This document shows positions 1-7,755 of a stretch of DNA of 7,755 nt, one piece after another. How positions within the stretch are numbered: the first letter of the stretch is position 1; each line of letters begins with the position of its first letter. A program made the translations under genes and the position numbers. The notes under the pieces were generated by a model. The model was not told where the DNA came from and ran no database searches. It worked only from the letters and a program-made list of their open reading frames with translations. This DNA comes from Gemmatimonadota bacterium (GTDB lineage Bacteria > 4572-55 > J002). The DNA is taken from positions 1-7,755 of the forward strand of contig RFFQ01000060.1 in assembly GCA_003697105.1 (NCBI GenBank), written 5' to 3'.

Positions 1-185
1 CTCATAAGGGGATGTTTTTTTTGCATATAGCTTTCGGGATCAAACATCAAGTGGAATTTCACCGCATTCAGACCCATTTCGGCCATATCATCGATCATGC
101 GGATTAAATAATCCATATCGCCTTCATGATGATAAGCCGTTTCGCCGATAATATAAGGGTATTGTGGGTTCAATGCTTTTTTCAT
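1..185 (-). CDS. Second, divergent NeuB-like (N-acetylneuraminate synthase family) protein, N-terminal part only
   Basis: Only the first 61 codons are in the window; the rest lies beyond the left edge. The visible residues begin MKKALNPQYPYIIGETAYHH and continue with a helix and then AVKFHLM (about residues 41-47). This lines up with the start of the true NeuB in this window: IIGETAYHHEGD against IIAEAGVNHNGD, and NAVKFH against DAVKFQ. That points to the same TIM-barrel fold that condenses phosphoenolpyruvate with an aldose. Two family signatures differ: HNG becomes HEG, and the Q of KFQT is H. The substrate may therefore differ, or the protein may not be a classical synthase. The start is an ATG overlapping the methyltransferase stop by four bases (ATGA), with AGGGA nine bases upstream (195-199). 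Family membership is inferred from the N-terminus alone. Confidence 0.72.
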   Translation of the reverse strand, partial: MKKALNPQYPYIIGETAYHHEGDMDYLIRMIDDMAEMGLNAVKFHLMFDPESYMQKKHPLM

Positions 186-1000
186 GAGCCTATATCCCTT
201 TGAATCTGTTGGTAGGTTTTGGAATATAAGTCGGAAATCGGGAGGTTCACTGCGCTCGGTAACCCTGATTTTATTTTTTGGAGAACGATCATATATTCAT
301 AAAATTGAGCCGGCATTTCTGTAGTGTAATTATTCTTAGCAAAGTCGCCGCGCCGGTGATAATAACGTCCCGAAACCAGCGAAAACCCGAAATCATCCAA
401 ATGAGAAAAAAGAAGAGGAATATCCGTAAAGTAATTGGGGTGCCCTTTTTTTCGAGCATTTTTTTCTGCAATCAAGGCGTGTTCATCATCGGCAAAATAC
501 CGATCATTTTTTCCGGTGATCAGCACCGTACCACCGGTTTTAAGAACCCGATTGATTTCTAGCAAGGTTTGATTCTGGTATGTCGTGTCAAACATTGCAT
601 AGCAAATCACATGATCAAAAAAATCGGAGTCAAACCCGGTGTGTTCCGCTTCTACAACCTTAAATTGAACGTGTTCATATGCTTGACAAGTTTCCTTGGC
701 GGCATCAACCATTGCCTGAGAAATATCAATAGCGTAAATATTCTGAGTTTTAGTATACAAAAACGGGATGCTACGTCCAAAGCCACAACCCATTTCCAGT
801 ATATTCGCCCCCTCGTGAATATTTAAGCTATCGATAGCATCAAAATAGATCTGATCGCTGGCACAGGCGTTGTCATTTTTGACTAATGTTGATTGACTGC
901 CCGGTTTTTGATTCGCTTCTTCAACCCGTGCTTTCCAATATTGATAATAAGTATCGTTCCAATAGTGTTTTCGGGCTTCGGGATCGATTGTTTTTTTCAT
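182..1000 (-). CDS. Class I SAM-dependent methyltransferase
   Basis: A 272-residue protein with a Rossmann-type methyltransferase core. Motif I is ILEMGCGFGRS (about residues 67-77), the glycine-rich SAM-binding loop. The acidic end of beta-2 is in YAIDIS (89-94), an acidic residue sits in VVEAEH (about 115-120), and the post-core strand is VLKTGGTVLITG (152-163). The N-terminal 60 residues are helical and aromatic-rich (HYWNDTYYQYW) and may cap the substrate site. There is no signal peptide or membrane segment, so it is cytoplasmic. The acceptor cannot be read from sequence; the setting in a nonulosonate operon suggests a sugar or sugar nucleotide. An in-frame start at 1084 exists, but I chose the ATG at 1000: it has AGGAAG seven bases upstream and makes a four-base ATGA overlap with the sulfotransferase stop, whereas the longer form adds only low-complexity Arg/Pro residues read from inside that gene. 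Confidence 0.88.
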   Translation of the reverse strand: MKKTIDPEARKHYWNDTYYQYWKARVEEANQKPGSQSTLVKNDNACASDQIYFDAIDSLNIHEGANILEMGCGFGRSIPFLYTKTQNIYAIDISQAMVDAAKETCQAYEHVQFKVVEAEHTGFDSDFFDHVICYAMFDTTYQNQTLLEINRVLKTGGTVLITGKNDRYFADDEHALIAEKNARKKGHPNYFTDIPLLFSHLDDFGFSLVSGRYYHRRGDFAKNNYTTEMPAQFYEYMIVLQKIKSGLPSAVNLPISDLYSKTYQQIQRDIGS

Positions 1001-1992
1001 GAGACATCTTCCTGGGTGGGGGGTTCTTCGTATGCGCCGGGTGTGTCGGGGTAGGCTTGCACCCCATCCCCATGCGTTAACCAATACCTGTATCGCTTAT
1101 GCAAAAAGTCCGTATGAAGCATGTCATAGAGTTGGTACCATTCTTCTGAATTTAGATCGATACCGGTGAAATCGTAGCCATATGTTTTGAGTTTGTCTTT
1201 TAACACCATTTCGGTGAGGTAAATTTCAATCGGAGATAAGGTGTTCTGCCACAGATGGGCTGTTGTGCTATCAATGGTTGCTCGATTTCCGGTATGAGAC
1301 GAATTTCCGTCAAATGGATTACCGAGTTGATCCTGAAATGAGCTTACATCCAGCATCTGGGGTATAAAATCAATCTCCAAAAAATCACAAACGGATTTGA
1401 GGGTATGTTCGGGGTTTGCAACCAAATTTTCGTATTTCAACAGATAAATCTGAGGATGGTTGCGGATGCTTTCTTGACCAATGAAATTAAACATTGCCAA
1501 AGACGCAAAAATGGAATCCATATACATCAAACCCGGATGATACGTCATTTTTTTATAAGAAGCTAATACCGCTCTCGGGTCACGATACGTATGAATAACT
1601 TTTCCCTGAGGAAACATATTCAGAAAATGGGGAATAGATTCCCATTTGACCGCCGTCCGGTCAAGCCACCGTTCACCGGGTTTTAAGTCCAAAAAAGAGC
1701 GCATAATTTCGTCATAAACAACGCCTTCGGTAATCACCTCATGGCGGCGAATCGCGGACTCAATTTGATCGAGTTTTAACTCAATGCCACGACGTTCTTT
1801 TACCCGTTGGAAGGTATCGGCGAGAAGCTCTGGGAATCGTTCTGCTATGGGATGATACTTTCCGTAAGAAAACCGCATAAAATGGACAGTATCATAAGAA
1901 ATTTTGATCTGAGGGCTTTGTCCTAGTGCCAGAATGAGGACGGTGCTCCCACTGCGATATAATAAACTAATAAAAATGGGACTTGAATTCAT
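997..1992 (-). CDS. PAPS-dependent sulfotransferase family protein
   Basis: A 331-residue protein with both PAPS-binding signatures of the sulfotransferase superfamily. The 5'-phosphosulfate loop is YRSGSTVL at residues 12-19. The 3'-phosphate motif is HTYRDPRAVLASY at 134-146, with the expected Arg137 and Ser145. Further family features are LKYENLVANPEHTL (185-198) and a helix plus GY near 255-273. Length is normal for the Sulfotransfer_1/3 type. No signal peptide is seen, so transfer of sulfate from PAPS probably occurs in the cytoplasm. The C-terminal tail (about 308-331) is polar and Pro-rich and looks disordered. The ATG overlaps the upstream stop by four bases (ATGA), with no good ribosome site of its own, so coupling to the deacetylase-like gene is likely. 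The acceptor is unknown; from context a nonulosonic acid, its precursor or the glycan carrying it are the candidates. Confidence 0.88.
   Translation of the reverse strand: MNSSPIFISLLYRSGSTVLILALGQSPQIKISYDTVHFMRFSYGKYHPIAERFPELLADTFQRVKERRGIELKLDQIESAIRRHEVITEGVVYDEIMRSFLDLKPGERWLDRTAVKWESIPHFLNMFPQGKVIHTYRDPRAVLASYKKMTYHPGLMYMDSIFASLAMFNFIGQESIRNHPQIYLLKYENLVANPEHTLKSVCDFLEIDFIPQMLDVSSFQDQLGNPFDGNSSHTGNRATIDSTTAHLWQNTLSPIEIYLTEMVLKDKLKTYGYDFTGIDLNSEEWYQLYDMLHTDFLHKRYRYWLTHGDGVQAYPDTPGAYEEPPTQEDVS
1008..1013 (-). promoter_or_regulatory. Shine-Dalgarno site of the methyltransferase gene
   Basis: AGGAAG on the minus strand, seven bases before the ATG at 1000, inside the last codons of the sulfotransferase gene. 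It supports the short 272-residue start over the longer in-frame start at 1084. Confidence 0.6.
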
Positions 1993-3356
1993 GATGTATG
2001 CACAGACTCTTGATTGTGAACGGTTCGGCGGAGGGTTCCGGATGCAACATCCAGATTGACGACCTCAACAACACCTGCTGATGTATTTGCCGCGATACCG
2101 ATGGTCTCGATCTGGTCAATCCATACGTTATTGAAATCGAAAGTGTATGACCATTGTTGCGTATCATCAAAGTCCAGATTTTCCCAGTAAAACTGATTCC
2201 CCCGGGTCTTCAGGGCGAGGAAGGGTTGGGGACCAAAAATGGGGTGCTGACTTCGAACGGTCAGTACTGACGCCGCTTTTTTTCGCTGAAGTTCCACCTC
2301 AAATTCTGGAGCATATAGGTCATTTATTCCCAACGTCTTACGCATCCCTTCAATGGCGGTAACATGCTTAAATTTCACCTTGGGATATTGTCGGTCCACC
2401 TTCACGATCATGTTCCAGACTTTATCAATTTCAGGACTCATATCCCGAAAGTCATGGTTAGTGAAGGATAATAAGGATGCACCATGTGTTTGGGCTTCAC
2501 GATACGCGAGATCAATATCAGCGTGGGTAATTTCACGTAATCGGGCTTCCATATTCAAACAACGGGCAATCCACCTCCGGCAATTTCCCGGCGTTTGGTA
2601 ATCATCATGGCTAGGGTGGTACGGGATCCATGTTTTCGGTGCCCGGCGCCAATCACCGAAACGGGACCCAGAGAGGTCAGGTTGCCCTTGATAATTCTCC
2701 GTTGCCTGATTAGCGTAATCGAAAGGAATCCATTGTTCCAAAAAAAAGTTGGAGTCGGGGCGTTCTGTGTGAAAGCCCGGACGGTAAACGGCAGGAAACC
2801 ACTCTCGTTCAATTACCCGGCGGGTCAAAATATTATAGATGTGGTCAGAATTTAAGAAGGTCGTACCGGAGCGGTGGGCATCTTTATTGATGGGCAACGG
2901 GTGAAAATGCCATTGAATGGAGTCACAGGTAATCCCGTGATACCGGTTGTAACGCCGATAATGGTCGAAAACGTTATGGTAGCCTAAATCCCGACGGCGA
3001 GGATTCAAACCCGTGTAGCCCACATTATCCAAACAAAACCAATTGTAAATCCAGCCGTTACCGTAGGAATCGGCATATCGCGCCCGAAATTCGGCAGAGG
3101 TAATCCGATCCAGCATGGCATCAATTTGATCCCAAGTCTCATTCATCTGAATTCGTTTTGGTGCGACTAAATTGGCAACGGCATCTTCATTACCGTTCAA
3201 ATCAATTTCTTTATTTTGAAGTTTTTTCAAAGTGGATTTCGAGGGCTCAAAATCATAGCCAAAAATATCGTGAATGCGTTCAAAGGTTGCTTCCAAAGAT
3301 TCATATACGGGTCCTTCGGTATCAATACAATGGACCACATAGACTATATTTTCCAC
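1989..3356 (-). CDS. Divergent polysaccharide-deacetylase-like (NodB-type fold) protein
   Basis: A 455-residue protein with no clear assignment to a named enzyme. Several segments resemble, in order, the motifs of metal-dependent NodB/CE4-like deacetylases: HCIDTEGP (residues 9-16, with the Asp of motif 1), QWHFHPL (148-154, an HxH like the metal-binding histidines of motif 2), YRPGFHTERP (191-200, like the R-x-G of motif 3), a Trp/His-rich WIPYHPSHDDY (243-253), and SFTNHDFRDM (297-306, a His-Asp near the barrel end). The last 100 residues are beta-rich and may be a separate domain. There is no secretion signal, unlike most envelope deacetylases. It lies directly after neuB and is coupled to the sulfotransferase, so the substrate may be a sugar of this pathway. 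The start is GTG, chosen because AGGAG lies nine bases upstream and the N-terminal strand IVYVVHCIDTEG begins at once. Fold inferred; activity unproven. Confidence 0.68.
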   Translation of the reverse strand: MENIVYVVHCIDTEGPVYESLEATFERIHDIFGYDFEPSKSTLKKLQNKEIDLNGNEDAVANLVAPKRIQMNETWDQIDAMLDRITSAEFRARYADSYGNGWIYNWFCLDNVGYTGLNPRRRDLGYHNVFDHYRRYNRYHGITCDSIQWHFHPLPINKDAHRSGTTFLNSDHIYNILTRRVIEREWFPAVYRPGFHTERPDSNFFLEQWIPFDYANQATENYQGQPDLSGSRFGDWRRAPKTWIPYHPSHDDYQTPGNCRRWIARCLNMEARLREITHADIDLAYREAQTHGASLLSFTNHDFRDMSPEIDKVWNMIVKVDRQYPKVKFKHVTAIEGMRKTLGINDLYAPEFEVELQRKKAASVLTVRSQHPIFGPQPFLALKTRGNQFYWENLDFDDTQQWSYTFDFNNVWIDQIETIGIAANTSAGVVEVVNLDVASGTLRRTVHNQESVHTS

Positions 3357-3360
3357 GAGG

Positions 3361-4401
3361 TTATGCTCCTAAAAAATGGTCCCACGTTAAAGGTTCGCCC
3401 GGGTGTATATCCACAAGAACGGTTTTACCTATAATTCGGTCAATCTCCGTTGGAGTGATGCCGGTTCCGGGGCGTTTGATAGCAATTTTATCAGGAGTAA
3501 TACGCTCTCCAGCAGAAATAAGTTGAGTGGCAACAAGGCTTTTCCGAACGGCAAACATGATTTCCATTTCACTCGGGTTAGGTTGTTTAATCCCTGTACC
3601 TAAGCTGGTTTCCACATGACGGATTGCAGAAACCATCTGCTTGAGTTCATGGGGCTCTAACGAGGCTTTATGATCCGGCCCAGGCAACGTTCGATCCAGA
3701 GTAAAATGTTTTTCGATCACGGTTGCACCCAGTGCGGCTGCCGCTGTTGGAATTTCGATCCCCATCGTATGATCAGAATATCCTACTGGCAGTTGAAAAG
3801 CATTTTTCAAGGTTTGCATTGCACGCAAATTAACCTCTTCATAGGGGCACGGGTAATTGGTGGTACAGTGTAGTAAGGTCAGGGGAGAAAAGGCGGTTGG
3901 GGGGGTGGTGCTAGATTGAACCGTCTGAATGGTTTGTACCGCACGTTCTACTTCACCTAAGTTACACATGCCGGTGGAGAGGATAATCGGCTTTCCTTTT
4001 GTGGCAATGTGCTTTAAAAACGGCAAATTGATAACTTCACCAGAGGATATTTTATATATCTTGACTAAATCTTCAATAAAATCAGCACTTTCCCGGTCAA
4101 AAGGTGTAGTCAAAAACTGGATTCCAGCGTGGTCGCAGTCGGTTTTTAGTTGAACAAACTCATTATAAGTTAATTCGAGTGCTCGAAGCATTTCGAGTTG
4201 TGACGCTTGACCATCTCCCATATTGTCAATTTGATATTGGGCGCGCTCGGCATATTGCGAAACCAATGCTTCGGCTTTGAATGTTTGAAATTTAACAGCA
4301 TCCACTTTTGCTTCTACGGCGACATCTATCAATTGGCGCGCGAGATTAATATCACCATTATGGTTAACGCCAGCTTCGGCGATAATGAATACACGGGGCA
4401 T
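3361..4401 (-). CDS. neuB: Nonulosonic acid synthase (NeuB/LegI family)
   Basis: A 346-residue, full-length synthase that condenses phosphoenolpyruvate with an N-acetylated aldose to give a nine-carbon 2-keto acid. The N-terminal TIM barrel shows AEAGVNHNG (8-16), VDAVKFQTF (33-41), ISSGE (118-122), LSTGM (141-145), HCTTNYPCP (178-186), GYSDHTMG (207-214) and EKHFTLD (230-236). His211 and His232 correspond to the metal ligands known in NeuB. The C-terminal SAF (antifreeze-like) domain covers about 285-346 and carries KRPGTGI (309-315), which favours the NeuB/LegI branch over PseI. With LegC and a PglD-like enzyme upstream, legionaminic acid synthase (LegI) is the likeliest role, but sialic acid cannot be excluded. 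The ATG overlaps the epimerase stop by one base (TGATG), with GGAG five bases upstream. A Thr/Pro-rich loop (about 164-172) interrupts the barrel before HCTTNYP. Confidence 0.95.
   Translation of the reverse strand: MPRVFIIAEAGVNHNGDINLARQLIDVAVEAKVDAVKFQTFKAEALVSQYAERAQYQIDNMGDGQASQLEMLRALELTYNEFVQLKTDCDHAGIQFLTTPFDRESADFIEDLVKIYKISSGEVINLPFLKHIATKGKPIILSTGMCNLGEVERAVQTIQTVQSSTTPPTAFSPLTLLHCTTNYPCPYEEVNLRAMQTLKNAFQLPVGYSDHTMGIEIPTAAAALGATVIEKHFTLDRTLPGPDHKASLEPHELKQMVSAIRHVETSLGTGIKQPNPSEMEIMFAVRKSLVATQLISAGERITPDKIAIKRPGTGITPTEIDRIIGKTVLVDIHPGEPLTWDHFLGA
3366..3370 (-). promoter_or_regulatory. Shine-Dalgarno site supporting a GTG start
   Basis: AGGAG on the minus strand, within the last codons of neuB and nine bases before the GTG at 3356. 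It is the best evidence that the deacetylase-like gene begins at this GTG, four bases after the neuB stop. Confidence 0.6.
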
Positions 4402-5567
4402 CAGTTCTCCGGGAAATCGAGTACTTTACGAATAAATTGTTGATTAATATCTATCGATTTGATGCTGTTCACAATTTTCGGTGCCGCCTGACCGTTGCCA
4501 AATTTGAAAGTCATCTTTGTTAATGATTTTCGAAATTCAACATCTTGTGCTTTATGGATTCCAGACATGATTGACGGCACACTGTAATCGGTGTCGATGA
4601 TACTCAGATGCCGCAACCGGCCTTGCTGACGGTCACCGATGTTAACCGTAGGTATACGGAAAAAGGGAACTTCTAAAATACCACTTGATGAATTACCGAT
4701 AACAAATAAACAATGGGGAATCAAGCTATGGTAGCGTAAAACACCTAGGGAATCGAAGTAGTGATAATGGTCGTTTTTAGCAACATTTTCCTTGATTAGT
4801 CGAAGTAATTTATCTCGATTGACTTCAATATTGGGAGCCGTAACAACCACTTGAAACTTAAAATGGCTTAACGCTTCAAATAGGTTCGAAATTTGTTTTT
4901 CAGGAGGCACTTCAAATTCTAGCGTAACAGGATGATATGTCAGTAGGACGGTTTGTTGATCGGGGTTTAATCCTAAATTTTCATATAGATCGCTTTTGGG
5001 TATTTTTTTAAGGTTGACGATATTATCGATTCCAAGGGCACCGGTTATGATAATCCGATTCGCAGGCTCACCCATTCGGCGCACATTCTGGGCATATTCC
5101 TCACATGCCACAAAATGAAGATGGGAGGCTTTTGTCACCATGTGCCGAATCTGTTCATCAATGACCCCCTCGGTTTTTTCTCCTCCATTAATGTGAAAAA
5201 TGGGTTTTTTGAATAAAATAGCAGTCGTAACAATTGGTAATAACTCATAACGGTCACCTAAAATACAGATGGCATCAAAGGAATAGTGCTGAAATAGATG
5301 TGCTAATTCAATCGAGGCAACTCCCATTGATCGAGAAAGTGAAAAACTTGTATTTTCATTCAATAGATAATCAAAAGTGTCAGTGACAGGATATTTCTGT
5401 TCCTGAATTTCAGTTAAGGTATACCCGTGTTCAACTGCCAGATGTGTTCCTCCCACAAACAATAAGTAACGGAGGTCTGGGTCAGCATTGATCGCTTGTA
5501 AAAGAGGTAAAAATAGTCCAAATTCCGCCCGTGTCGTTGTAAAAATAGCGATAGTACGTTGTGTCAT
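4401..5567 (-). CDS. neuC: Hydrolysing nucleotide-sugar 2-epimerase (NeuC/LegG family)
   Basis: A 388-residue, two-Rossmann-domain (GT-B-like) enzyme of the UDP-GlcNAc 2-epimerase family, hydrolysing branch. It releases the nucleotide and inverts C2 to give the free manno-configured sugar used by NeuB. Visible signatures are TTTRAEFGLF (10-19), GGTHL (39-43), LGDRYELL (103-110), HINGGEKTEGVIDEQIRH (125-142), TYHPVT (210-215), GNSSSGILE (291-299) for nucleotide-phosphate binding, and VNIGDRQQGR (308-317). Length is normal. In the Leg pathway the equivalent is LegG, acting on a nucleotide-linked N,N'-diacetylbacillosamine; the neighbouring legC and acetyltransferase make that reading likelier than UDP-GlcNAc. 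It follows a 232-bp gap, the only sizeable break in the operon. The ATG at 5567 has only a weak ribosome site (GGTAG six bases upstream). Confidence 0.93.
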   Translation of the reverse strand: MTQRTIAIFTTTRAEFGLFLPLLQAINADPDLRYLLFVGGTHLAVEHGYTLTEIQEQKYPVTDTFDYLLNENTSFSLSRSMGVASIELAHLFQHYSFDAICILGDRYELLPIVTTAILFKKPIFHINGGEKTEGVIDEQIRHMVTKASHLHFVACEEYAQNVRRMGEPANRIIITGALGIDNIVNLKKIPKSDLYENLGLNPDQQTVLLTYHPVTLEFEVPPEKQISNLFEALSHFKFQVVVTAPNIEVNRDKLLRLIKENVAKNDHYHYFDSLGVLRYHSLIPHCLFVIGNSSSGILEVPFFRIPTVNIGDRQQGRLRHLSIIDTDYSVPSIMSGIHKAQDVEFRKSLTKMTFKFGNGQAAPKIVNSIKSIDINQQFIRKVLDFPEN

Positions 5568-5731: not shown

Positions 5732-5803
5732 CAAATTAGAAGTCAAAAACCCTAGATTCCGTCTCATTTTCCAGACTTCTGCAGAGACTTCAGCATTTTT
5801 CAT
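5726..5803 (-). CDS. Possible 25-residue ORF coupled to the acetyltransferase stop
   Basis: MKNAEVSAEVWKMRRNLGFL plus five residues. Its ATG overlaps the TGA of the acetyltransferase by four bases (ATGA), the same junction used at three other places in this operon. I recognise no family. It may be a real small protein, the surviving N-terminus of a deleted gene, or chance. The GAAGTCT repeats lie inside it, which weakens the case for a conserved protein. Confidence 0.2.
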   Translation of the reverse strand: MKNAEVSAEVWKMRRNLGFLTSNLS

Positions 5804-6429
5804 TGTAAGCCTCTTGCAGGGATTCCGAGATAAGTGCCGGCACATAACAGATCCGTGGTGACAACCGAACCGGCTCCGACAACACACCCTGAACAGATTT
5901 TTTTGTATTGAATTACGGTAGCTCCGGTACCGATTAAACAATCATCCTCAATGGTCACGCCTCCACTGAGCGTCACGCCTGGGGCAACATGGACAAAATT
6001 TCCCACCTGGCAGTCATGATCAATGGATGAACGGGTATTCACGATCGAAAAACACCCAATACGAGACCCCGAATTTACGACTACGCCATCCATGACCACC
6101 GTGCCGGCGCCGATATGAACATCTTCGTTAATAATGGCTGTTGGCGATATAACCGCTGGAAACACATAACCGATTTTGATCGCTTTATCACGCAATCGAC
6201 GCCTTAATTCTGCTGTTTTTAGCTGGCCGATTCCCAAAGTAGCCAGGTTCGTACCTCGAGCAAACTGTCCCGGTAAAACATCATCGGTCCCTAAATAGGG
6301 TACACCTAAAATAACACCGTGATTTACGGTATCCACGTAACCGACAACCTGATACTCTCTGATTTTATTCAATAGGGAAATCACGACTTTCGCATGACCT
6401 CCCCCGCCAATAACGAGTATTCTAGGCAT
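5800..6429 (-). CDS. neuD: NeuD/PglD-family sugar acetyltransferase
   Basis: A 209-residue enzyme with the two domains of PglD-type acyltransferases. The N-terminal Rossmann-like domain starts RILVIGGGGHAKVV (3-16), the nucleotide-sugar binding loop. From about residue 97 a left-handed beta-helix of hexapeptide repeats follows (IGAGT, IGCFS, VGNFV, IGTGA, VGAGS), ending in GIPAR (202-206). His138 in SSIDHDC matches the position of the catalytic base in PglD. The expected reaction is transfer of acetyl from acetyl-CoA to the C4 amine made by the LegC aminotransferase next door, the LegH step if the product is legionaminic acid. The alternative is O-acetylation, as for NeuD in sialic acid operons. 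The ATG overlaps the legC stop by eight bases. Length is typical and no residue is obviously missing. Confidence 0.9.
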   Translation of the reverse strand: MPRILVIGGGGHAKVVISLLNKIREYQVVGYVDTVNHGVILGVPYLGTDDVLPGQFARGTNLATLGIGQLKTAELRRRLRDKAIKIGYVFPAVISPTAIINEDVHIGAGTVVMDGVVVNSGSRIGCFSIVNTRSSIDHDCQVGNFVHVAPGVTLSGGVTIEDDCLIGTGATVIQYKKICSGCVVGAGSVVTTDLLCAGTYLGIPARGLQ

Positions 6430-7576
6430 GTTTCAACACCGATACCACATACGCCACATCATTGGGAGTTAAATCCACCGAACAGGGAAGATTCAAGGTT
6501 TTTTCCCATAAGGCCCAAGCGGTCTCAATTTGATACGACTGGCAATGGCGGTACGGCTTTTGGCGATGATTCAAATACCAGACTGGCCGGGCTTGAACCC
6601 CTTTGGCGGCTAAAAATGCCATCAATTGTTCGCGATCCTTGCCATAAATATCTTTATCAATTTGAAGACAATAAAACCAATAATTGGAACAAGCATAATT
6701 CGGTGTTTCGGCAATATGTAACCCGCGAATGTGCTCGATTTCCTGTTGATACCGTTTGTAATTTCGGGTTTTAATCTCAATATATTCTGCTAATTTTTCC
6801 AATTGTGCCACGCCCATCGCTGCCTGAATATTGGTGAGTCTGAAATTATAACCCACCTCATGGTGAATATACCGCACGGGATCATCTTTTGCCTGAGTGG
6901 TTAAGTAGCGTGCTTTTTGGGCAACGGCTTCGTTGGAAGTGACGATCATTCCCCCTCCACCGGTGGTAATGATCTTATTACCATTAAAGGAATAGCACCC
7001 GACATCTCCAATTGTTCCCGTATACTGTCCGTTCAAGTTCCCTTGTGTATAATATGTTCCTAAACTCTCGGTGGCATCCTCGACGATTTTAATATTCCGC
7101 TCTTGGCAGATCGGAACCAGCGATTCTAAATCCACTGCATTTCCGTAGATATGAACCGGAATAATGGCTGAAATCCGTTTCCCACTGGTTTTATTATAAC
7201 TGAAACCCTCTCGAAAAACCGTTTCGTTCTGGATAAATTGAATGGTTTTCTCAACATCAATATTGTAAAACGCATCGGCATCCATAAAAATTGGATTTGC
7301 ATTTAAATAGCGAATGGTATTGACCGGCGCAATAAACGTGAGGGTCGGGACCATCACTTCGTCGTCTGCTTGAACACCCACCACCTGCAGCGCAACTTGA
7401 AGTGCCGCTGAGCCGTTGACACATGCTACGGCATAATCGGCACCGGTGACCCGGCAAATATCCTGTTCAAAGCGCTCGACGTACGCCCCCGCAGAGGAAA
7501 CCCAACCGGTATCCAGACAGTCTTTGATATACACCCATTCATTACCCCGAATGGAAGGAACAGATAAAGGGATCAT
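6422..7576 (-). CDS. legC: LegC-family PLP-dependent sugar aminotransferase
   Basis: A 384-residue aminotransferase of the DegT/DnrJ/EryC1 (type I fold) family. It closely follows the LegC pattern: N-terminus MIPLSVPSIRGNEW, then LDTGWVSSAG (21-30), VNGSAALQ (53-60), VEDATESLGTYY (165-176) with Asp167 placed to hold the PLP pyridine nitrogen, and SFNGNKIITTGGGGM (196-210) with Lys201 as the Schiff-base lysine. YNFRLTNIQAAMGVAQLE (243-260) is also typical. It should convert a nucleotide-linked 4-keto-6-deoxy-HexNAc to the 4-amino sugar with glutamate as donor, the second step towards legionaminic acid. The 4,6-dehydratase that makes its substrate is not in the window. It appears to be the first gene of the operon, as nothing comparable in length precedes it on this strand. 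The ribosome site is weak, with GAGG 16 bases upstream. Confidence 0.93.
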   Translation of the reverse strand: MIPLSVPSIRGNEWVYIKDCLDTGWVSSAGAYVERFEQDICRVTGADYAVACVNGSAALQVALQVVGVQADDEVMVPTLTFIAPVNTIRYLNANPIFMDADAFYNIDVEKTIQFIQNETVFREGFSYNKTSGKRISAIIPVHIYGNAVDLESLVPICQERNIKIVEDATESLGTYYTQGNLNGQYTGTIGDVGCYSFNGNKIITTGGGGMIVTSNEAVAQKARYLTTQAKDDPVRYIHHEVGYNFRLTNIQAAMGVAQLEKLAEYIEIKTRNYKRYQQEIEHIRGLHIAETPNYACSNYWFYCLQIDKDIYGKDREQLMAFLAAKGVQARPVWYLNHRQKPYRHCQSYQIETAWALWEKTLNLPCSVDLTPNDVAYVVSVLKHA

Positions 7577-7586
7577 GCTATTTATC

Positions 7587-7706
7587 TTACGACCTCAATG
7601 TATAAAGGTCTTTCAGGACAAATATTATCAAATTTAGACCCGCTAATTTCATATTATAACCCAAGTTGCTACCAAAGAAAGTCTTGAAATAGGCCACTCC
7701 TTTCAT
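7587..7706 (-). CDS. Doubtful 39-residue ORF in the legC leader
   Basis: An ATG at 7706 opens a frame of 39 residues (MKGVAYFKTFFGSNLG...) that stops ten bases before the legC start. It has a mildly hydrophobic patch (LAGLNLIIFVL). There is no ribosome site upstream and no family is recognised. It would also span the best -10 box, so the two calls compete. Probably chance; a leader peptide is the other option. Confidence 0.12.
   Translation of the reverse strand: MKGVAYFKTFFGSNLGYNMKLAGLNLIIFVLKDLYTLRS
7591..7610 (-). promoter_or_regulatory. Leader hairpin just upstream of legC
   Basis: GACCT and AGGTC pair on the minus strand (five base pairs, plus an inner T-G) around a loop of about eight to ten bases, ending 15 bases before the legC ATG. 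The only GAGG near the start lies in the 3' arm. The stem is short and may be chance; if real it could limit legC translation. Confidence 0.25.
7653..7658 (-). promoter_or_regulatory. Candidate -10 box of the operon promoter
   Basis: A perfect TATAAT on the minus strand, 76 bases before the legC ATG, in the AT-rich stretch at the head of the operon. The sequence 16-18 bases upstream (around CTTTCTT) is a poor -35. It would give an untranslated leader of roughly 70 bases containing the short hairpin. Confidence 0.35.
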
Positions 7707-7712
7707 GTAGAC

Positions 7713-7738
7713 TTATCATATCTATATCTTATTGATAA
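7713..7738. repeat. TTATCA/TGATAA inverted repeat upstream of the candidate promoter
   Basis: TTATCA and TGATAA are inverted around a 14-base AT-rich spacer, about 55 bases upstream of the TATAAT box. This size and placement would suit a regulator site, but six-base arms in AT-rich DNA occur often by chance. Confidence 0.2.
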
Positions 7739-7755
7739 CTCTAACGTCTAACGAA

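Follow-up and report, generated by a model that had tools for sequence, protein, structure and literature searches.

An unnamed but conserved tailoring cassette in nonulosonic acid pathways encodes a putative NodB/CE4-fold hydrolase

Introduction

Nonulosonic acids carried on flagella, lipopolysaccharide (LPS) and capsules affect motility, antigenicity and the interaction of bacteria with host and phage. The product of the core legionaminic pathway is an N-acetylated 5,7-diamino nonulosonic acid, which can be modified further: PtmH (Cj1325) is the N-methyltransferase of cytidine monophosphate (CMP)-Leg5Am7Ac, and its substrate is the amidino sugar that PtmG produces. To our knowledge, several nonulosonic acid modifications have no known enzyme. 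Here we analyse a 7,755-nucleotide stretch of DNA (‘the window’), which is the entire contig RFFQ01000060.1 (C127 in our numbering) of a 4.18-Mb, 97% complete draft genome of a Gemmatimonadota bacterium, from a phylum represented by two species in our collection. The minus strand carries all genes of interest: legC, neuD, neuC and neuB, and then four extra genes encoding a putative deacetylase of an unnamed family (DEAC), a sulfotransferase (ST), a methyltransferase (MT) and a divergent NeuB-like protein (NeuB2).

The window shares its LegC, NeuD, NeuC and NeuB equivalogs with the described legionaminic pathway (the leg/ptm genes of Campylobacter jejuni, and the nab clusters), and differs from it in that LegB and the CMP-synthetase are outside the window and that, in the literature we examined, none of the named leg/ptm genes corresponds to DEAC, the MT subfamily or ST. 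Like MT, PtmH is an S-adenosylmethionine (SAM) methyltransferase encoded in a legionaminic locus (we compare the two by description). Unlike PtmH, MT occurs in a genome that lacks PtmG: WbuX/PtmG amidotransferase (TIGR03573) finds no match in the 97% complete window genome, and we have therefore set aside a PtmG-PtmH route to an N-methyl-acetimidoyl sugar. A further parallel, again drawn by description, comes from Legionella pneumophila serogroup 1 (Sg1): in the part of the published account used here (PMC3766260), the methyltransferase ORF8 N-methylates legionaminic acid and adjoins a second neuB-family gene (ORF9), outside the core set as in the window, and that part describes no sulfotransferase or DEAC in the Sg1 LPS O-antigen modification region. 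Methylated legionaminic acid of this kind is described in PMC3766260 and PMC13306086. Its methyl sits on an acetimidoyl group; given the lack of WbuX/PtmG, the chemistry should differ here. Finally, NDST1 (8ccy), an N-deacetylase/N-sulfotransferase, resembles the window in that a deacetylase-fold domain and a sulfotransferase are encoded together, whereas the window has two overlapping separate genes rather than one bifunctional polypeptide, and an ST closer to tyrosine sulfotransferases. Systems in which enzymes decorate a bacterial sialic-acid-like sugar are already known as a kind; the DEAC family at the centre of this one is new to the databases we searched. We found no description of a DEAC cassette in the open-access literature, subscription journals lying outside that search.

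Results and discussion

DEAC is linked to nonulosonic acid genes across phyla

DEAC (positions 1989-3356 of the window, minus strand; 455 amino acids, GTG start) belongs to no sequence family that we could assign. Searches of Pfam, NCBIfam, PHROGs and PDB gave no usable match, with no Pfam family even at E 10; the PDB profile matches to influenza haemagglutinin (E 0.01) are best taken as chance. The same holds for the wider family: 72 relatives have no consistent Pfam match, and none of the families listed for them is PF01522. An alignment of these 72 members has 31 invariant columns, including D12, E14, H150, H152, R192, D213, H301 and D302.

A scan of GTDB genome contigs recovered 122 encoded relatives. 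The loci analysed throughout were picked by similarity to DEAC alone; the set consists of the top-scoring ones and includes many contigs of metagenome-assembled genomes (MAGs). The 78 retained loci cover more than 15 bacterial phyla plus two Asgard archaeal MAG contigs (taxonomy as labelled in the database records). A neuA, neuB, neuC or ptmE-like gene is present in 64 of the 74 loci with a called DEAC gene, and such a gene lies within 10 kb of DEAC in 41 of the 45 loci having at least 18 kb of sequence. When 80 DEAC loci were searched with the window proteins by tblastn, we detected neuA in 57, neuB in 53, neuD in 47, legC in 44 and neuC in 39; ptmE-, ptmA-, ptmF- and WbuX/ptmG-like genes are also found in many of the loci. 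This linkage is not expected by chance, since just two neuB genes are present in the 4.18-Mb genome of the window (two per ~4 Mb), at which density ~1% of random 20-kb stretches would contain one. The phage, plasmid and viral-contig collections that we searched contain no DEAC relative, and thus provide no tie to mobile elements.

The presence of a legionaminic-type pathway in the window is well supported at the level of profile matches, as the products of legC, neuD, neuC and neuB all score above the NCBIfam cut-offs. Together with the recurrence of the module beside neuB, neuA or legC in many phyla, this upholds the central proposal of a preliminary description of the window, namely that a tailoring module is appended to a legionaminic-type operon. 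We conclude that the block is genuine: a conserved tailoring cassette of nonulosonic acid pathways that has not yet been named, widespread and of uncharacterised chemistry. Lacking a Pfam, NCBIfam or PDB entry and being linked to nonulosonate pathways in more than 15 phyla, the DEAC family is a good candidate for an unassigned nonulosonate modification step.

Several observations on the wider family and its neighbourhoods stand apart from this. Distant matches, among them L014 and L016, are proteins of 600-945 amino acids with signal-like N-termini, the N-terminal part of which is 25-29% similar to the DEAC barrel; at least two of them have C-terminal sorting-like tails, and they apparently form a second, exported branch of the family, as judged from sequence. 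In a Flavobacteriales MAG (L036, 9911-12351), a DEAC-ST pair stands alone amid housekeeping genes, with no nonulosonate genes within 10 kb. Two families of ~410 amino acids (18 and 13 members; e.g. L084 11359-12585 and L075 14688-15917), which have no Pfam match above cut-off, adjoin DEAC or lie near it in many proteobacterial loci. Where core nonulosonate genes are absent, a distantly related gene pair (L095 11299-12162 and L046 306-1118) adjoins MT and/or DEAC, and is possibly MptE/DUF115-like or sialyltransferase-like.

MT appears to be a dedicated partner of DEAC, and ST a looser one

The calling of the next two genes as a sulfotransferase and a methyltransferase agrees with their profile matches. 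ST (997-1992, minus strand; 331 amino acids) matches Pfam Sulfotransfer_3 at 2.6e-23 and is of the 3′-phosphoadenosine 5′-phosphosulfate (PAPS) type: the N-terminal RSG(T/S)T and RDPR motifs of PAPS-dependent transfer are kept in 22 relatives. MT (182-1000, minus strand; 272 amino acids) matches Methyltransf_11 at 1.5e-18 and is predicted to be SAM-dependent.

Among 386 diverse genomes, MT finds only two matches at E≤1e-20, in the window genome and in one other (G351); these are also the only two of the 386 with a full-length DEAC, and in both MT and DEAC lie in one short block. Eighteen of 50 DEAC-carrying genomes have MT, one copy each, and as each of the 18 DEAC loci contains an MT, this single genomic copy is the one in the DEAC locus. 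Full-length MT is likewise confined to one of 199 genomes of the Helicobacter cinaedi order, that of Helicobacter cinaedi itself, which further sets the subfamily apart from PtmH. The 22 aligned members of the DEAC-linked MT subfamily share 26 invariant columns. MT therefore appears, on its distribution, to be a dedicated partner of DEAC, which makes the pathway open to testing: a genome that carries both DEAC and MT is predicted to make a modified nonulosonic acid. We rejected ST as a strict partner, as the sulfotransferase family is found in 22 of the 386 genomes, mostly without DEAC; judged by gene content, ST is a frequent but looser partner than MT.

MT is present in 22 and ST in 23 of the 74 DEAC loci, and each is found on the same strand within 300 bases of DEAC in 15 loci. 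Both occur together in nine loci by gene clustering, to which tblastn added L070 and L079. Carriers available in culture include Roseovarius sp. ZX-A-9 (L058), in which DEAC, MT and ST are all present, Cohnella xylanilytica and Desulfospira joergensenii. The presence of MT and that of ST each require at least 13-14 changes on the DEAC tree, and the two are thus exchanged partners. Of the co-occurrence beside neuB that the preliminary description asked about, the DEAC-MT and DEAC-ST pairings stood, recurring elsewhere; MT and ST proved optional, and the complete DEAC-ST-MT-neuB2 set was not seen intact in any other DEAC locus compared. The two outcomes named there as speaking against the idea (no joint conservation elsewhere, or homologues acting on unrelated substrates such as lipids) were encountered neither for DEAC with MT nor for DEAC with ST.

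The nearest match to the window set is L023, an Omnitrophota MAG contig with consecutive DEAC, ST and divergent neuB. The window DEAC groups with it and with L022 (Heimdallarchaeota MAG) and L024 (gammaproteobacterial MAG), with a Shimodaira-Hasegawa-like approximate likelihood ratio (SH-aLRT) support of 95. ST directly follows DEAC in all four members of this clade, and L022, L023 and L024 have a divergent neuB in which EMA(W/C)SH(D/E)G replaces the usual NHNG motif (ETAYHHEG in the window), which supports the fourth gene as part of this sub-version of the cassette. We rejected the idea that a second neuB generally belongs to the module: across the compared loci and contigs, only 4 of ~55 clustered neuB-type genes are of the divergent kind, and three of these 4 belong to the window’s own DEAC clade.

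NeuB2 itself (1-185, minus strand) is represented by its N-terminal 61 codons only, because the window is a whole contig and ends there. The claim of a second synthase-like gene holds for this fragment, which matches TIGR03569 over positions 1-43 at 1e-4, at its N-terminus only. In alignment, NeuB2 reads GETAYHHEGD where AEAGVNHNGD is usual; its best relative, with ETAFHHEGD, is at L042 5172-6158. The probable gene order past the contig edge (see below) has a parallel in L024, where a divergent neuB is followed by a cytidylyltransferase and then another neuB, and the divergent gene adjoins a cytidylyltransferase in L022 and L042 as well. As a separate observation, DEAC-ST pairs are present on two Heimdallarchaeota/Asgard-assigned contigs, L022 and L061 (the bin assignment is provisional), where DEAC is 59% identical to that of the window.

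The predicted fold of DEAC resembles that of NodB/CE4 deacetylases

The model of DEAC has a mean predicted local distance difference test (pLDDT) score of 94.9 and consists of a barrel similar to that of NodB and carbohydrate esterase family 4 (CE4) enzymes (residues 1-345) and a β-sandwich domain (~350-440). Every one of the ten top fold matches to the full model is a NodB/CE4-type deacetylase or a putative one (Z 14.3-11.6, 219-240 residues covered); HP0310, ArnD, chitin deacetylase and NDST1, through its deacetylase domain, are among these ten. NodB/CE4 deacetylases again come first when the barrel is searched in isolation. Thus the deacetylase-like call made earlier was right at the level of the predicted fold. 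Measured against the published CE4 motif definitions (PMC5855634), the invariant Asp12, His150, His152 and His301-Asp302 of DEAC occupy the topological places of motifs 1, 2 and 5, and motif 5, I(V/I)LxHD, is present as such, with its invariant H301-D302 at the end of a barrel strand. What DEAC has in common with the NodB/CE4 deacetylases (HP0310, ArnD, chitin deacetylase, WbmS) is therefore the barrel fold (Z 10.4-14.1), the base Asp and the His-Asp of motif 5. We noticed no secretion signal by eye, without a predictor run. DEAC is probably a cytosolic metal-dependent hydrolase of the NodB/CE4 fold, as far as the model goes.

Other features set DEAC apart from these enzymes (extra helical insertions, the C-terminal β-sandwich and the lack of Pfam or profile similarity), and several results weigh against its acting as a deacetylase of the cassette’s sugar. 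The TFDD of motif 1 reads DTEG in 70 of 72 members and DAEG in 2, so that the base Asp is kept and Glu14 is invariant, but the metal-binding Asp is replaced by Thr or Ala; in motif 2, H150-x-H152, both histidines of which are invariant, departs from the canonical H(S/T)xxH; and in an hhalign profile comparison of DEAC with 30 classical CE4 proteins the probability was 0, with no similarity. In view of the altered motifs and the missing profile similarity, DEAC most likely works like a CE4 hydrolase, as suggested by the model, but should not be filed as CE4. The same fold superfamily also includes the GH57 and GH38 glycoside hydrolases and the PuuE allantoinase, and so N-acetyl hydrolysis by DEAC is not established. 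On the genomic side, 10 of the 74 loci have no marker nonulosonate genes in the sequence examined (L036 is an example), and many DEAC loci have neither MT nor ST, which makes these partners not obligatory.

Ordinary CE4-motif deacetylase genes (TFDD, H(S/G)xxH), separate from DEAC, are also found inside DEAC loci: at 8146-9135 in L088, and in L052, L056 and L059.

Proposed function of the cassette and alternatives

We propose that the block is a tailoring module in which DEAC N-deacetylates a legionaminic-type sugar that MT and ST decorate, a reading to which we give an even chance. LegC, NeuD, NeuC and NeuB would make the 5,7-diamino sugar. DEAC would then remove an N-acyl group, probably acetyl, from the free sugar, its CMP form, the lipid-linked sugar or the glycan carrying it. 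In the order of steps suggested here, MT would next methylate and ST sulfate this sugar or glycan, either on hydroxyls or on the amine set free, and the second NeuB-like synthase, probably with its own cytidylyltransferase, would supply the same surface glycan with another acidic sugar. If amine unmasking does take place, it would provide a route by which non-acetyl N-substituents could appear on these sugars.

DEAC could instead be another hydrolase of the same barrel superfamily, engaged in glycan trimming or amide cleavage, with MT and ST decorating another sugar or a polymer carrier. The GH57, GH38 and allantoinase structures that share the fold (Z about 9-12) appear among or after the deacetylases in the search with the isolated barrel, the canonical CE4 metal motifs are altered, and the C-terminal domain is a CBM56/Ig-type β-sandwich of a kind often found in polysaccharide-acting enzymes, with matches to unrelated structures starting at Z 8.7. 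Another contig of the genome, discussed below, also brings two more sulfotransferases, an FkbM methyltransferase and glycosyltransferases. Against this stand the exclusively deacetylase-type top ten of the full model and the invariance of the motif 5 His-Asp and motif 1 base Asp in 72 members, and we consider this alternative rather unlikely.

The proposed N-deacetylation could be extended to a general ‘unmask and re-decorate’ step, in which DEAC would free an amine on an acid of the legionaminic type, to be capped by a dedicated partner through N-methylation (MT) or N-sulfation (ST). We regard this broader version as speculative and, on balance, improbable; if true, it would amount to heparan-sulfate-like NDST chemistry on a nonulosonic acid, in bacteria and possibly Asgard archaea.

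A narrower variant, a special case of the tailoring reading, is that DEAC and ST carry out N-deacetylation followed by N-sulfation of the nonulosonic acid, as animal heparan sulfate NDST chemistry divided between two genes, while in other species the free amine would be methylated by MT. NDST1 belongs to the top fold matches of DEAC (Z 12.8-13.2), 15 loci have DEAC next to ST, the two genes share an ATGA overlap in the window, and granular sludge polymers held both N-linked sulfate and legionaminic/pseudaminic acids, though not on one molecule (PMC10483923). However, the closest solved relatives of ST by sequence (PDB) are tyrosine O-sulfotransferases and not NDST, many DEAC loci are without ST, and we found no N-sulfated nonulosonic acid in the open-access literature, all of which makes this variant doubtful.

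Finally, it is very improbable that generic surface-polysaccharide genes with no shared function simply happen to lie together in the block: sulfotransferases and SAM methyltransferases are common, the sulfotransferase family is widespread without DEAC and both partners change repeatedly on the DEAC tree, but the restriction of MT to genomes with DEAC in three separate genome sets already contradicts it for DEAC and MT, as does the position of DEAC beside nonulosonate genes in so many phyla.

Organisation of the locus and its likely continuation

The ORF calls agree with the earlier placement of four extra genes downstream of neuB. The description of these genes as an ATGA-coupled block directly after neuB was correct for the three junctions within it, DEAC/ST, ST/MT and MT/neuB2, each of which is a 4-base ATGA overlap. 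It did not hold for the junction with neuB, where the TAA stop is followed by 4 bases and then by the GTG start of DEAC, that is, by a short gap without overlap.

Upstream on the minus strand are the core genes. The neuB/legI-type nonulosonate synthase with a SAF domain (3361-4401; 346 amino acids) matches PF03102 at 1.9e-98 and TIGR03569 at 471 bits (cut-off 400). It is preceded by a neuC/legG-type hydrolysing nucleotide-sugar 2-epimerase (4401-5567; 388 amino acids; TIGR03568, 384.5 bits against 235.9), a neuD/pglD-type sugar N-acetyltransferase in the LegH role (5800-6429; 209 amino acids; TIGR03570, 202 bits against 160.8, with Pfam hexapeptide repeats and PglD_N) and a legC-like aminotransferase (6422-7576; 384 amino acids; TIGR04181 LegC family, 479 bits against 420). 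The LegC, NeuC/LegG and NeuB/LegI equivalogs of the legionaminic operon test are therefore all present above cut-off. The LegB 4,6-dehydratase profile gave 15 related dehydratase/epimerase matches in the whole genome, the best at 167.6 bits against a cut-off of 475. The final 104-106 bases of the window (7650-7755) are found again, 99% identical, at the ends of two other contigs of this genome, C128 and C129, so a dispersed repeat immediately upstream of legC interrupted the assembly. An Rfam search of the window and contigs C126, C128 and C129 returned no RNA element. SSU rRNA is missing from the assembly, so that 16S gave no taxonomic placement.

A genome-wide NeuB search found the neuB of the window (neuB1), another on contig C126 and a weak match on C9, where the ORF resembles 3-deoxy-D-arabino-heptulosonate 7-phosphate (DAHP) synthase; the remainder of neuB2 is absent from the assembly. 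The end of C126 cuts a CMP-nonulosonate-synthetase-like gene (NeuA/PseF-like, 142 bits against a cut-off of 205.7), after which neuB3, glycosyltransferases, two sulfotransferases and an FkbM methyltransferase are read in the same direction. C126 is probably the continuation of the window locus, an adjacency that we infer. Given C126, the contrast drawn earlier with operons that continue into a CMP-sugar synthetase and glycosyltransferases probably vanishes past the edge of the window. In this probable continuation (271-8362 of C126, L008), the third neuB is without a SAF domain, and the extra sulfotransferases, FkbM methyltransferase and glycosyltransferases possibly point to a heavily sulfated surface polymer.

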